45,492 bases of DNA from an uncultured Eubacteriales bacterium (lineage in GTDB: Bacteria; Bacillota; Clostridia; Christensenellales; UBA1242): the NCBI GenBank assembly GCA_949841245.1, contig CATKYT010000006.1, positions 1 to 45,492 of the forward strand. The letters run 5' to 3'. This document shows, piece after piece, positions 1 to 20,428 of the stretch. The notes below the pieces were generated by a model, which saw only the letters and a program-made list of their open reading frames with translations, did no database searches and was not told the DNA's origin. Within the stretch, counting starts at the first letter, position 1, and each line of letters starts with the position of its first letter. The translations under genes were made by a program, and so were the position numbers.

Positions 1-3000
1 ATAATTGGCAGTTTAGTGGTTGGACAACTTCTTTAAATTCGGCAACGGAAATTTATTCGGGTGGGTCTAAGTTCCGCAATCTTACTGCAAAAAATAACGA
101 CATATTCAATGTTTACGCCATTTATAAAAGAACAGTTTCATTGGTTTATGAAGCCAATGGTGGAACAGGAACAACGGCAAACACCACTGGCACACAATAT
201 GGAAATCTTTATTCTGGAACAGTTGGAAGTTTTGACATTCAAATTGCTTCAAACAATTTTATAAGAAGTGGATATACATTTCTTAATTGGAACTTAAATG
301 CCAATGGCACAGGTGCAAGTTTCACAGCAGGTGCCATCAGTACACAAGGAAATGGGCAACAATTGTGGACAACTTATACTTCAAATGCTACACAAAAATT
401 GATTGCCAACTGGGGTATTGTTGAATACACTGTTACCATTAGACCTTTTTATTCCGACAATGGCGGTGGTAAAGTCAGTTACAAGGCGGGAGTGCCTGCA
501 AAATATACTGTTTCAACAACTGGTGGGTCAAGAACAAATTCTGTTGATCTTACCAGTGCCGAAGCCAAAACTTTAAGTGTTAATGCTGAATATGGGAACA
601 AAATTGTTGTAAATCACAATTTAGATTCTCAATGGCAACTTATGGGAATTTATACATATCAAACAACACCTAATATGATTCAATCCAATCCACAAGTGAC
701 AGTTATGGATGAATCTGACACAAACATATATGTGTATTTTGCACGAAATTCTGAAAATAAATTGAAATACACATCAGATAATGGCGGATATTTCTATTTT
801 GAAGACGGTTATTTCCCACAAAGCATGGTGACAGGCGTTGCCACAAGTGGAACACCAAGCGGAAAAACTTACAACATTGCAGGAACAAACATTGCAAGTT
901 ATATGGTAAATGGACAGGAATATGTCTATGTTAAAGGTGCCGTGTTTAAAGTGGAACCAATCAGATGGAGAATAAGCGAATATGGAACTTCAATAAATAA
1001 TTTCCCAAGTCGTTTTGCTGATTTTGGAAGTTATTACACCAATTTCAGTGCTGTTAGTGATTTGGTTTTGAATGTTGGCAGTGCAATGACAAAAGAACAG
1101 TTTGACGCCAAACAAAAAGACGGCTCTTGGAAAGATTGGAGTATAGCAGATTCTGCATTACCTGCTTTGGTAAGCGGAATAAATGTAAATTATGCTAAAC
1201 CATTTGCACAATCATATGACAAGTTTGGAAGTGTGGGAAATACAAGTGTTGTTTCTGGAACAACGACAGGGGCAAGCAGTAATATTAGAATAGCATCTGA
1301 TTGGGATGTTATAAGTTGCTCTTCCGATTTTAATTGCATGGCAAGTGATTTGGTTAAACATTTGCTTGGATGTGGAACATATGCAAGTTATTGGATGCCA
1401 AATCTGGGCAGTCAATATGGTGCTGGAAAGATAATCACAACCAGCAATCAATTTAAAGACCTATGGTTATATGAACAAGCAGGCGTTCGTTTTGCAATAA
1501 CATTTACTGATGGTGTCAGACATATAGGCGAAAAAGACACTTATCAAGTGATTCTTAAAGATGTTTATAATGGTGCGGTTGTCAAAGTTTACAACAGTGA
1601 TGAAACTGTTTTGAAAGATACTTATACAAATATTGTAAATAATCAAATTGCTTTGAATGTCAATTATGATGATGTTATTGTCATTTCAAATCTTGTTCGT
1701 AACGGTTATGACTTAGGTTCAAATGGTAAGATATTCAGTGTGACAGGAACGAGTGGTAACTCTGGTAATTCTCAATCTGGTTTGGTGACTGCAACCAAAT
1801 TTAGAAACTTAAATGACAATAATGGCAGTGTTAAGATTCAAGTTTTGTGGACTATGACAAACAATGCAATCAATTATTACGACAGATTTTCATTCTCTTA
1901 TAATCATGCGGAAAGAACAGTCAGTGTTCGTGCAGCAAACACAAACATTTCTGGTGAAATTGTCATTCCAGATGTGATTACACACCATACAAATGGATTG
2001 GAATATACAATTACTAAAATTTCTGCAAGTGGTTTCCAAAATTGCAAAAACATTACTTCTGTGATTTTACCTGACACTATTTTGGATATAAGTAGTAACT
2101 CATTCTATGGTTGTTCAAACCTTAAACAAATCAAGCTGTCAAAAAATCTTGTAAACATTAATAGTGGTGCTTTTGACAATTGTATTAATTTGACATCTAT
2201 TTCAATCCCTGCTTCAACAAGAAAAATTTCCAGTGCATTCATGAATTGCACAGGTTTGAATTATGTAAATTTTGAAGGCACATTGAGACAATGGGCAACA
2301 GAAATTGCTTTATCAGCTCAAACTCCAACATTATACAGTAAGAATTTGTATATTAAAAATGAATTGGTTACAAGTGTTGACTTTACAGGAACAAGCATTA
2401 CAAAGATAAATAATTACGCATTCAGAAATTTAACATCAGTGACAAGTTTAAAATTGCCTAACACAGTTGTTTCTATTGGTAAATATGCTTTTGCGGGCTG
2501 TGTGAATATGGCAGGAAATTTTAACACTTCCATCACTCGTGTGGAAGAACGCGGTTTTGATGGTTGTTCTAAACTTACTGGAACAGTTGGAGCATTAAAC
2601 TATATTGACGATTACGCTTTTGTTGATTGTAGAGGACTTACAAGCATAACTTTTGCAAGCAATATTACACAAGTAGGCAATTATGCATTCTTAGGGTGTA
2701 CAAACCTTAAAAACACCACTTTCCAAGGTAATGTTGCACAATGGGCTAGTATATCTTTTTGGAGTGAATTATCAAATCCAGTTATGTATAGCAAAAACTT
2801 GTTTATAAATGGTTCCAATTTGACATCTGTAAATCTTTCGGGAACAGGAATTACAAAAATTGGTGCGCACGCATTTACAAATTTGACAAACATAACAAGT
2901 TTGACATTGCCAACAACTTTGACTCGAATTGAATCTGATGCATTTAGAAATTGTGCAGGAATTACTGGGTCACTTATTATTCCAGACAGTGTAACTTATA

Positions 3001-3434
3001 TTGGATCCAATGCTTTCAGTGGGTGTCAAAGAATTTCTTCCGTTGTTATAGGAAATGGCGTTAAACAAATTTATAGTGATTCATTTAAAGATTGCAGAAG
3101 CATGGTTTCATTGAAACTTGGCAACAGCACAACAGACATTTATTCAAATGCATTTAGATATTGCTATAATTTAAGAAGCGTTTATTTGCCATCAACTGTT
3201 TCCAACATAAATTGTGTTGCTGGTTCAAGTCCTTTCTATGGATGTTCAAGTTTGAAAATTTATTGTGGTGCAAGTTCTAAACCAAGTGGTTTTGATGAAT
3301 ATTGGGATACTTGGTATTATCGTGCTGCCTTTACAGATGCAAATGGTTATCATCCTTTAATCAATTATAAAATCAGTGTTTATTGGGGTTACACTTATTC
3401 CCAATATCAAAATGCAACGGGGGGGGTATTTTAA
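1..3434 (+). CDS. Large secreted/surface protein with InlB-type (Listeria-Bacteroides) repeat and BspA-like leucine-rich repeats; 5' end lies outside window; ends at a frameshift in a G8 tract
   Basis: Frame 3 is open from the first codons of the window (NWQFSGWTTSLNSATEIYSGG...). InlB-like segment VSLVYEANGGTG...GYTFLNWNLNANGTG...LIANW. Many LRR_5 units (TKINNYAFRNLTSVTSLKLPNTVVSIGKYAFAGC etc.). ORF stops right after ACGGGGGGGGTATTTTAA. Confidence 0.85.
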   Translation, partial: NWQFSGWTTSLNSATEIYSGGSKFRNLTAKNNDIFNVYAIYKRTVSLVYEANGGTGTTANTTGTQYGNLYSGTVGSFDIQIASNNFIRSGYTFLNWNLNANGTGASFTAGAISTQGNGQQLWTTYTSNATQKLIANWGIVEYTVTIRPFYSDNGGGKVSYKAGVPAKYTVSTTGGSRTNSVDLTSAEAKTLSVNAEYGNKIVVNHNLDSQWQLMGIYTYQTTPNMIQSNPQVTVMDESDTNIYVYFARNSENKLKYTSDNGGYFYFEDGYFPQSMVTGVATSGTPSGKTYNIAGTNIASYMVNGQEYVYVKGAVFKVEPIRWRISEYGTSINNFPSRFADFGSYYTNFSAVSDLVLNVGSAMTKEQFDAKQKDGSWKDWSIADSALPALVSGINVNYAKPFAQSYDKFGSVGNTSVVSGTTTGASSNIRIASDWDVISCSSDFNCMASDLVKHLLGCGTYASYWMPNLGSQYGAGKIITTSNQFKDLWLYEQAGVRFAITFTDGVRHIGEKDTYQVILKDVYNGAVVKVYNSDETVLKDTYTNIVNNQIALNVNYDDVIVISNLVRNGYDLGSNGKIFSVTGTSGNSGNSQSGLVTATKFRNLNDNNGSVKIQVLWTMTNNAINYYDRFSFSYNHAERTVSVRAANTNISGEIVIPDVITHHTNGLEYTITKISASGFQNCKNITSVILPDTILDISSNSFYGCSNLKQIKLSKNLVNINSGAFDNCINLTSISIPASTRKISSAFMNCTGLNYVNFEGTLRQWATEIALSAQTPTLYSKNLYIKNELVTSVDFTGTSITKINNYAFRNLTSVTSLKLPNTVVSIGKYAFAGCVNMAGNFNTSITRVEERGFDGCSKLTGTVGALNYIDDYAFVDCRGLTSITFASNITQVGNYAFLGCTNLKNTTFQGNVAQWASISFWSELSNPVMYSKNLFINGSNLTSVNLSGTGITKIGAHAFTNLTNITSLTLPTTLTRIESDAFRNCAGITGSLIIPDSVTYIGSNAFSGCQRISSVVIGNGVKQIYSDSFKDCRSMVSLKLGNSTTDIYSNAFRYCYNLRSVYLPSTVSNINCVAGSSPFYGCSSLKIYCGASSKPSGFDEYWDTWYYRAAFTDANGYHPLINYKISVYWGYTYSQYQNATGGVF
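3419..3426 (+). repeat. G8 homopolymer at the junction of two overlapping reading frames
   Basis: ...aatgcaac GGGGGGGG tattttaactgag...; G9 or G6 would fuse the upstream ORF to the ORF ending at 3808, G8 gives a stop. Confidence 0.95.
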
Positions 3435-3808
3435 CTGAGTCTGAATTAGAGGAAATGGTTGTTGACCTTGGTGGATATTTGAGTAAATTTGGTGAAGTTT
3501 ATTCAGTTGTAAATAATCCTTCAAACAACAGATATAATTTCTTTAAAGTGCAATTGGTAGATGCAAATGGCAGTTATCTTAGAGATGTATTAAACACTGA
3601 CCAATTGGGGGAAATAATTGTTCAAATTCCAAGTGTTGGAAATCAAGTAAGTGCTTTAATGATTGGTTTCAATGGCAGTACAGTTGACGCTAAACTTTTT
3701 TTAGATTTAAGCAATTTGCCAGTGGGGAATTATTATATAAACATTAAACTTGTACAATTCAATTCGACAGGTGGATCGTTTAAAATTGACTATTTGGTAA
3801 AAGGTTAA
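3427..3808 (+). CDS. Out-of-frame C-terminal region of the LRR surface protein (tract ORF 3383..3808)
   Basis: Frame 2 reads GGILTESELEEMVVDLGGYLSKFGEVYSVVNN...KIDYLVKG* immediately after the G tract; no RBS or plausible own start; followed by terminator. Confidence 0.6.
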
Positions 3809-18271: not shown

Positions 18272-18312
18272 ATTAAAAAAAGAAAACCGCTTAACATAAG
18301 CGGTTTTTTTAA
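18272..18312 (+). terminator. Bidirectional-type terminator between convergent genes
   Basis: AAAAAAAGAAAACCGCTTaacatAAGCGGTTTTTTT. Confidence 0.8.
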
Positions 18313-19137
18313 TTATAATACATTATATCCTAACAATTTGTATGTTTCTTTCAAGAAGTTGGATTCTGTAAATTTTGGAGTGTTGAAATTTATAAGTTTG
18401 ACATTTTTAAATTTTTCTGTAAGTGCTTTTGTGGTTTCAACCTTTTCTTGATTTGTAAAATCTGAATTTGATTTTTTTACAGTTGTGTTTGTTTTCTTGT
18501 TGCTTTCAAAGACATAGATTTCATTAATTTTATCTGCTGTTATGTTATTTTTGTTGGTTAATACCACTTCTTCTTCATGAAAACTGTAAACCCCATCATT
18601 AGCTGCCTTAATTTCGAAATATTGATAACCATTTTTTAACGCAAAGGTTTTTTCTGGCATATATGCTTGTAATAACCATTTATCATTAGTATTTGTTTTG
18701 ATGATCATAACTATATTAATATTATTGTTTGCATCAAACAAATTTATTATAAGTGAATCTTCGTTGACTTCATAGAATAAATAGCCTGTGCCTGTTATGT
18801 TTGTTTCATCTATTTTGTATGTTGCACTTGATGAATAATAGGTGTTTTCTTGTCCGTTTTCTATGCAAAACTTTGACCAAAACAAAATGGCTTTAATTTG
18901 ATGTTCTGAATTGTTGTAAAAATCTGTTGTGTTTGAATTGCTGTCTTTAAATTCTTTTTCACTTATAAATCCTATGTCATAACAAACTGTATTTATCAAT
19001 CCTTTCGCATCAAGTTTGTTGTTTTTAAACAATTTTGAAAGGTATAGCGAACCAAATAATATTGCTGCAATTGTAACAATTGTTACATAGACTGTGAGAA
19101 CAATTTTTCCCACATTTTTTGTTTTTACATTTTCCAT
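18313..19137 (-). CDS. Predicted single-pass membrane/extracytoplasmic protein, unknown function
   Basis: RBS aaaGGAGaaaaat-ATG; N-terminal TM helix (IVLTVYVTIVTIAAILFGSLYL), remainder hydrophilic. Confidence 0.75.
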   Translation of the reverse strand: MENVKTKNVGKIVLTVYVTIVTIAAILFGSLYLSKLFKNNKLDAKGLINTVCYDIGFISEKEFKDSNSNTTDFYNNSEHQIKAILFWSKFCIENGQENTYYSSSATYKIDETNITGTGYLFYEVNEDSLIINLFDANNNINIVMIIKTNTNDKWLLQAYMPEKTFALKNGYQYFEIKAANDGVYSFHEEEVVLTNKNNITADKINEIYVFESNKKTNTTVKKSNSDFTNQEKVETTKALTEKFKNVKLINFNTPKFTESNFLKETYKLLGYNVL

Positions 19138-19178
19138 ATTTTTCTCCTTTTTTGAAACTTAAATGTTTCTTCATTTCA

Positions 19179-19205
19179 ATGATATCATAGCGGGGGGGGA
19201 GTCAA
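19179..19205 (-). promoter_or_regulatory. Promoter with C8 homopolymer in the -35/-10 spacer
   Basis: On the minus strand: TTGACT-CCCCCCCC-GCTATGA-TATCAT (15-nt spacer; extended -10 TGATATCAT). Confidence 0.55.
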
Positions 19206-19259: not shown

Positions 19260-19288
19260 TTGGAAATTACTATGTTTTGTGGTATACT
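19260..19288 (+). promoter_or_regulatory. Sigma-A promoter of prfB
   Basis: TTGGAA-17 nt-TATACT upstream of aaGGAGatttttATG. Confidence 0.55.
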
Positions 19289-19320: not shown

Positions 19321-20428
19321 ATGTTAGTTGATGTTCAGAAAGAAAAATTGGTATCTTTAAAAGATAGTTTTAATTTTATTAAGGAGTGTCTTTGACCCAG
19401 TTAAACTGGAAGAAGATCTTGAAAAAATTAAGGAAGAACAACTTTCCGATGGCTTTTTTAATGATGCTGTAAGAGTTTCTAAGGTAGGCAGAGAGCAAAA
19501 ACTTTGTGAATATAAGTTGGAAAAAATAAAAAGATTGCAAACAGAGATTGATAATTGTGAAGCAAGCATAGAATTGTTGGAAGAATTGGATGACCAAGGA
19601 ATTTTTGATGAGTTATGTCAAACTTTGGTTGTTTTGGAAAAAGAAATTGAAAGTTCTAAATTGGAAACTTTGCTTTCTGGAAAATATGACAATTATAATG
19701 CAATTTTGACATTGCATGCTGGTGCAGGCGGAACAGAAGCACAAGATTGGACAGACATGCTTTATCGTATGTATGGCATGTATGCCGAAAAAAATGGTTA
19801 TAAAATTAAGGTGTTAGATGTGCTTGACGGAGATGAAGCTGGCATTAAGTCAATTACTTTTTCTGTGTCAGGCGAATTTGCTTATGGCTATTTAAAAGCA
19901 GAAAAGGGTGTTCACAGATTGGTAAGAATTTCGCCTTTTGATGCCAATTCACGCAGACACACCAGTTTTGCAAGTGTGGAAGTTATGCCAGAAATTGAAG
20001 AAGCACCAGACATCACCATAAGACCAGAAGATTTAAAAGTGGATACATTCAGAAGTTCGGGCGCTGGTGGACAACATGTCAATAAAACAGAATCTGCCAT
20101 TCGTATTACTCATATTCCTTCTGGAATTATTGTTGCATGTCAAACTGAGCGATCTCAGATGCAAAACAGAGAAACTGCCATGAAAATGCTTTATTCGAAA
20201 CTTGTGGAAAAGCAAGAATCGGAAGAAATGGAGAAATTGGCGTCTATTCGCGGAGATATTAAAAAAATTGAATGGGGAAGTCAAATTCGTTCTTATGTTT
20301 TTTGTCCTTACACCATGGTTAAGGATCACAGAACAAACTTTGAAACAAGTGATATTCAATCGGTTATGAACGGCGATATTCAAGATTTCATCAATGAATA
20401 TCTTAAAAGGACAAGTGTTAAAAATTGA
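19321..20428 (+). CDS. prfB: Peptide chain release factor 2, expressed by programmed +1 frameshift (join 19321..19392, 19394..20428)
   Basis: ATG at 19321, frame 1 reads to AAGGAGTGT CTT TGA C (in-frame TGA at 19393); +1 shift joins the frame-2 ORF with GAGGQHVNKTESAIRITHIPSGI. Confidence 0.96.

Follow-up and report, generated by a model that had tools for sequence, protein, structure and literature searches.

A poly-C tract in a promoter spacer as a candidate phase-variable switch, one of some 28 G/C tracts in the genome of an uncultured gut clostridium

Homopolymeric contingency loci are textbook matter for a few host-adapted pathogens, Neisseria among them. The closest described parallel to the promoter considered here is that of porA in Neisseria meningitidis, where a homopolymer lies between the -35 and -10 elements and one base more or fewer alters their spacing and the strength of the promoter (van der Ende 1995, as cited in PMC5084427). 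In the same species a poly-C run stands in the promoter of opc, also a membrane-protein gene, and its length sets expression (Sarkari 1994, as cited in PMC5084427). The length of a short C-run likewise changes transcription in fim2, fim3, and fimX of Bordetella (C7/C8 in fimX; PMC1891110). Repertoires of a size similar to that reported below have been described in Neisseria (PMC5084427), and Helicobacter canadensis has about 29 tracts in one genome, in promoters and near the starts and ends of genes (PMC2823697). Slippage in a G-tract also operates as a switch in a gut commensal, in the pilus genes of Bifidobacterium breve (PMC9187656).

The window discussed here is a stretch of 45,492 nucleotides (assembly GCA_949841245.1, contig CATKYT010000006.1, positions 1 to 45,492) from an uncultured member of the Eubacteriales (Christensenellales; UBA1242). 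I propose that a run of eight cytosines within it serves a phase-variable sigma-70 promoter as its slippage tract and is one unit among about 28 G/C-tract contingency loci, a reading that the sequence comparisons below make probable at roughly 0.87. A literature search that left out most subscription journals returned no paper on phase variation in this lineage, the Christensenellales, and none on such homopolymer tracts in assemblies from gut metagenomes. The mechanism belongs to a known kind; the lineage, the number of loci, and the target genes are, within the literature searched, new.

A promoter with a C8 spacer tract

The minus strand from 19205 to 19179 reads TTGACT-CCCCCCCC-GCTATGA-TATCAT. 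An uninterrupted homopolymer thus lies, at 19192, between the -35 and -10 elements of a recognizable promoter, which is the mark of promoters of the porA kind. The sequence-only reading had placed a C8 inside a 15-nt spacer ahead of an extended -10 element, and the letters bear it out. The features of the locus are these:

19200 to 19205, minus strand: -35 element TTGACT, read from the sequence; TTGACT or TTGACA stands likewise in 112 tract promoters of the genus
19192 to 19199, minus strand: C8 homopolymer between -35 and -10, the candidate slippage tract; C7 at the orthologous place in the nearest congener, G035 (L243/L165)
19179 to 19191, minus strand: remainder of the spacer, GCTATGA, with TG at 19187-19186, and the -10 element TATCAT at 19184-19179, read from the sequence
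19144 to 19149, minus strand: Shine-Dalgarno sequence AAGGAG, read from the sequence
18313 to 19137, minus strand: gene driven by the C8 promoter, for a 274-aa single-pass membrane protein (sequence, structure model)
18283 to 18307, minus strand: intrinsic terminator 3' of the membrane-protein gene (terminator scan)

The promoter lies about 42 nt ahead of the membrane-protein gene, whose ATG is at 19137-19135. A single membrane helix stands at the N-terminus of the protein, and its external domain is mostly beta (model pLDDT 78). A Pfam search gave no match to the protein, a fold search of the model against the PDB gave none that convinces, and the family, so far as could be seen, does not extend beyond the genus. 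The divergent neighbor, prfB, has its own promoter at 19260-19288, so the C8 tract belongs to the membrane-protein gene, and the idea that it forms part of the prfB promoter is ruled out. Within prfB, at 19390-19396, is the usual RF2 programmed frameshift site, CTTTGAC, with an SD-like AAGGAG ahead of it.

How might such a promoter switch? Slipped-strand mispairing during replication would cause the C-run to gain or lose one C, the distance between -35 and -10 would shift, and the strength of transcription of the gene at 18313-19137 would change with it. A weak promoter is the probable outcome of C8, with its spacer of 15, and a strong one would be expected of C9 or C10 (spacer 16 or 17). A standard promoter scan, in which spacers of 16-18 nt are allowed, does not report TTGACT-C8-TATCAT, and this fits a weak state at C8.

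Promoters of the porA kind share with this one the position of the homopolymer within the -35/-10 spacer. In the account of porA cited above, however, the run is poly-G, the gene is for a proteobacterial outer-membrane protein, and such promoters are few, whereas here the runs are mostly poly-C and found in 12 promoters in 1 Mb, in an uncultured genus of Clostridia known here by one genome per species. The opc gene, from what is cited of it, differs in belonging to an unrelated organism and encoding an unrelated protein, and the tracts are shorter here. Of the precedents offered by the sequence-only reading, that of porA is the exact one, since its run bears on the -10/-35 spacing. In Bordetella fim the C-run sets the distance from an activator region to the -10 box (PMC1891110) and does not, as here, lie between a near-consensus -35 and the -10.

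G/C tracts in the window and the genome

Within the window G-runs grow rarer by smooth steps up to length 5 (41 of length 4 and seven of length 5), lengths 6 and 7 are missing, and then come two of 8, a gap that has no counterpart among A- and T-runs. It had been claimed that a run at 3419 is the only other long G/C run in the window. That is right, but its place inside a gene, where it breaks the reading frame, had been overlooked. It could be argued that long G/C runs are everywhere, the product of chance or mutational bias, and that one of them happened to fall in a promoter. The window by itself lends this some color: two sites with at least seven C or G are reached in 3 of 100 shuffles, so it is only mildly unusual, and its 4 overlapping matches stand against 0.69 expected. 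Yet the genome is AT-rich, and elsewhere in the window C-runs reach at most 4 and G-runs at most 5. In the entire genome, of 1,003,652 bases, uninterrupted G/C runs of 8-10 nt number 28: 14 of length 8, 11 of length 9, and 3 of length 10 (figures worked out from overlapping matches). If the window is extrapolated, the numbers to expect are about 0.6-1.7, 0.1-0.4, and 0.01-0.09, respectively, for a total of about 2. The genome-wide excess over chance is overwhelming. There is moreover a trough at lengths 6-7, with 7 to 9 runs among the matches listed, as against 28 of at least 8, and a trough followed by a peak is expected from selection for a slippery length, not from neutral drift.

Location tells the same story. 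Of the 28 tracts, 12 occupy -35/-10 spacers, 14 fall within reading frames (that at 3419 included), and two are at ribosome-binding sites. Eleven, all of them C, begin no more than 6 nt from TTGAC, with a -10 box after them, where the expected share is 1.4% (p ~1e-13), and the reversed-pattern control gives 0 in this genome. Together the location bias and the run-length spectrum have already refuted chance and mutational bias, and the retention of tract positions between species, taken up below, also counts against them. The 11 C-tract promoters have spacers of 13 to 19 nt, and a twelfth carries G9 in place of C (L040). Each of the 12 stands ahead of a gene that has a Shine-Dalgarno site, in most cases at 30-70 nt from the tract.

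A separate regularity is that a C precedes the G-run (equivalently, a G follows the C-run) in 24 of the 28 tracts here, 25 of the 29 in G035, and 78 of 109 promoters from the genus. The bias holds in promoters and genes alike and compares with about 12% for shorter G-runs of the window.

The two tracts at ribosome-binding sites are G9, directly before start codons (L038:4001 and L054:4001), a placement that suggests translational switching as a possible third class. Tracts in reading frames are always G on the sense strand. The one in the window interrupts a gene for a BspA-type surface protein:

3419 to 3426, plus strand: G8, the other tract of the window, within the gene for a leucine-rich-repeat surface protein of the BspA type (sequence)
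141 to 3434, plus strand: upstream reading frame of that gene, in the truncated state (sequence)
3428 to 3808, plus strand: downstream reading frame; with the tract at G8 it is out of frame with 141-3434 (sequence)

At G8 the frame stops at 3434, and one extra G would extend it by about 126 codons. In a paralogue (L049:9029) the corresponding codons carry G9, and there the frame is kept. At their present tract length four genes are out of frame and, by arithmetic, would be restored by one base more or fewer: the BspA-like gene (in its C-terminal part), a YdjC-family gene, split such that positions 1-114 of the family profile match before the tract and 115-257 after it, a GNAT gene, and an isochorismatase-like gene. 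Of the other genes with tracts, about eight are in frame. The genome thus has what defines a repertoire, many tracts, in promoters and in reading frames, in on and off states.

Perhaps the out-of-frame genes are pseudogenes or assembly errors, having nothing to do with the promoter tracts. Each species is represented by a metagenome assembly, homopolymers are prone to error, and tract lengths in such assemblies may be off by one. The parts downstream of the tracts nonetheless remain open and match their own families (YdjC 115-257, GNAT, isochorismatase), two of the orthologues are intact in G035, and the promoter tracts do not depend on these genes in any event, making this account very unlikely. 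More improbable again is that tracts act through slippage by RNA polymerase or the ribosome, that is, by programmed frameshifting, with no heritable change in DNA. Such a mechanism would suit the out-of-frame genes, and prfB close by makes use of one, but it can have no action in a promoter spacer, which is untranscribed, and it does not account for orthologues that differ in DNA length and frame state.

Tracts in related species

The genome of G035, the nearest congener, has 29 tracts of length at least 7. Sixteen tract positions are common to it and the window's genome, amidst flanks that are merely 75-90% identical. Length is equal in ten of the 16, which counts against slippage, and different in six. 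In four of those six the flanks match closely (lengths here/G035: L032 10/9, L034 10/8, L035 8/9, L040 9/8), and the gain or loss of bases is therefore the simplest account. Three of the four, L032, L035, and L040, are promoter tracts. The tract at 19192-19199 itself is less telling: it is C8 here and C7 in G035, yet TTGACT and the AAATGAAG downstream are equally far apart in both, so the difference could be a substitution and not slippage. A search for another strain by flank pattern in viral contigs gave no match.

Frame state differs between the two genomes in three genes. The isochorismatase-like and GNAT genes are off here and on in G035, with the qualification that in both cases neighboring bases differ too and the tract is not the sole difference, and the N-terminal tract of a long BspA-like protein (L049) is on here and off in G035.

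The promoter of the membrane-protein gene can be followed beyond G035, whose orthologue has its C7 at that position. Remote homologues in G061, G044, G072, G050, and G038 have C8-C10 promoters in the same place. Several relatives of the protein (L166-L168) lack the tract, a point against the preferred reading; the remote homologues in G124, G062, and G026 have no such promoter. At the prfB-side locus of named relatives, the closest of which is Candidatus Caccovivens faecavium (PrfB 81% identical), both the membrane-protein gene and the promoter are absent.

Across the genus, TTGAC-N0-5-C7 occurs in about half of 73 genomes, with up to 17 overlapping matches per genome. The reversed control gives almost none, and the pattern is rare in other families of the order. 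G/C runs of at least 8 are found in 73 of 81 genomes. From the genus 112 distinct tract promoters were collected, 109 with a good -10 box, and their tracts are C7 in 5, C8 in 29, C9 in 66, and C10 in 9. Their spacers range from 12 to 20 nt with a mode of 16, and the correlation between the length of the tract and that of the remaining spacer is 0.00. A promoter requiring a fixed 17-nt spacer would show compensation between the two, and none is seen; tract length is independent of the rest, which leaves the spacing scattered over that whole range. Of 89 tract promoters in other species, 74 have a gene with a Shine-Dalgarno site after them, at a median of 38.5 nt.

These figures bear on the view that the C-run is a fixed DNA element, a binding site for a regulator or a stiff spacer, whose length is constant in the cell. 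The recurrence of a TTGACAAAT-Cn-GTGTTATAAT motif within and between genomes would fit such an element, as would the ten shared tracts of equal length and the G that follows the C-run in 78 of the 109 promoters. Tract lengths of 7 to 10 at promoters otherwise alike, with spacing that is not constant, would not. Nor would the G-runs that take the place of C-runs in promoters of some species (L040/L246), and runs that also occur in reading frames and ribosome-binding sites would be senseless for such a regulator. I regard the fixed element as unlikely. A phase-variable promoter, as the sequence-only reading proposed, is the best-supported reading of 19179-19205, its architecture recurring at 11 loci here (plus one with G9) and at 109 places in the genus, with tract lengths of 7-10 uncompensated by the spacer. 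The sequences show this architecture and its recurrence, the excess over chance, tract positions that are kept while lengths change from species to species, and reading frames in opposite states; slippage as such, the way expression would respond, and any benefit are inferences from them.

Species-specific promoter modules with G-runs in the spacer were noted in G060, G020, G055, G046, and G121. In G060, for example, TTGACAC-G7-9 appears at about 13 places; it is as if each of these genomes had multiplied one module of its own. In G023 a single strand carries all 51 overlapping G8 matches, which may reflect one very long G-run or an artefact of assembly.

One might look to loss of mismatch repair as the cause of slippage. 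That was rejected, since MutS is present in all 81 congeners searched, and the system therefore does not rest on lost mismatch repair. The persistence of MutS also weighs somewhat against slippage, as does the shortness of the tracts, which in this genome do not exceed 10.

Target genes and what switching may mean

By a crude rule, 21 of 74 promoter targets in other species are lipoprotein-like, against none of 35 ordinary genes of the window, and by the same rule 20 of the 74 have membrane segments, against 18 of the 35. Many targets in this genome are soluble enzymes. The targets here also include NUDIX hydrolases, a radical-SAM protein, an inositol monophosphatase, and YdjC, GNAT, and isochorismatase-like genes, along with what are probably RBBP9-like hydrolases, an SDR, and an LTA-synthase-like protein of the sulfatase family. 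So wide a list of targets distinguishes this repertoire from most described ones.

Of these, that of Helicobacter canadensis has gene-end tracts, with C-terminal switching, that resemble those at 3419 and L034, but 5 promoter tracts as against 12 here, and variation of length in reads was demonstrated there (PMC2823697). The system of Bifidobacterium breve has two tracts, both within pilus genes, and none in promoter spacers (PMC9187656). Here a repertoire of pathogen-like size, in which tracts in promoter spacers make up a main class, is found in a commensal with a 1-Mb genome from an uncultured lineage of Clostridia. A tentative extension, to which I give somewhat less than even odds, is that these uncultured gut Clostridia, a genus with reduced genomes, use one standard poly-C promoter module at about a dozen loci per genome, together with coding poly-G tracts, and that these independently switch surface proteins and small-molecule enzymes (NUDIX, RBBP9-like hydrolase, SDR, inositol-phosphatase, YdjC, GNAT, isochorismatase-like). 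The benefit to a commensal may then be metabolic bet-hedging, with spacer length as its stochastic element. If switching is real, an assembly of such an organism captures just one expression state out of many, what look like frameshifts and weak promoters in it may be reversible, and the metagenome reads that already exist would allow switching in the gut to be measured at once.

One target adds a point in favor of the phase-variable reading. In the inositol-monophosphatase gene, G8 covers the conserved EAGG motif both here and in G035, while tract-less homologues from other species have A-G-G or A-G-A at the corresponding place, with mixed Gly codons. In two further genomes (L267 and L276, of G053 and G002) an inositol monophosphatase is fused in frame to an alpha/beta-hydrolase-like domain, and there a G9 tract lies at a Trp-Gly-Gly codon stretch of the hydrolase-like part.
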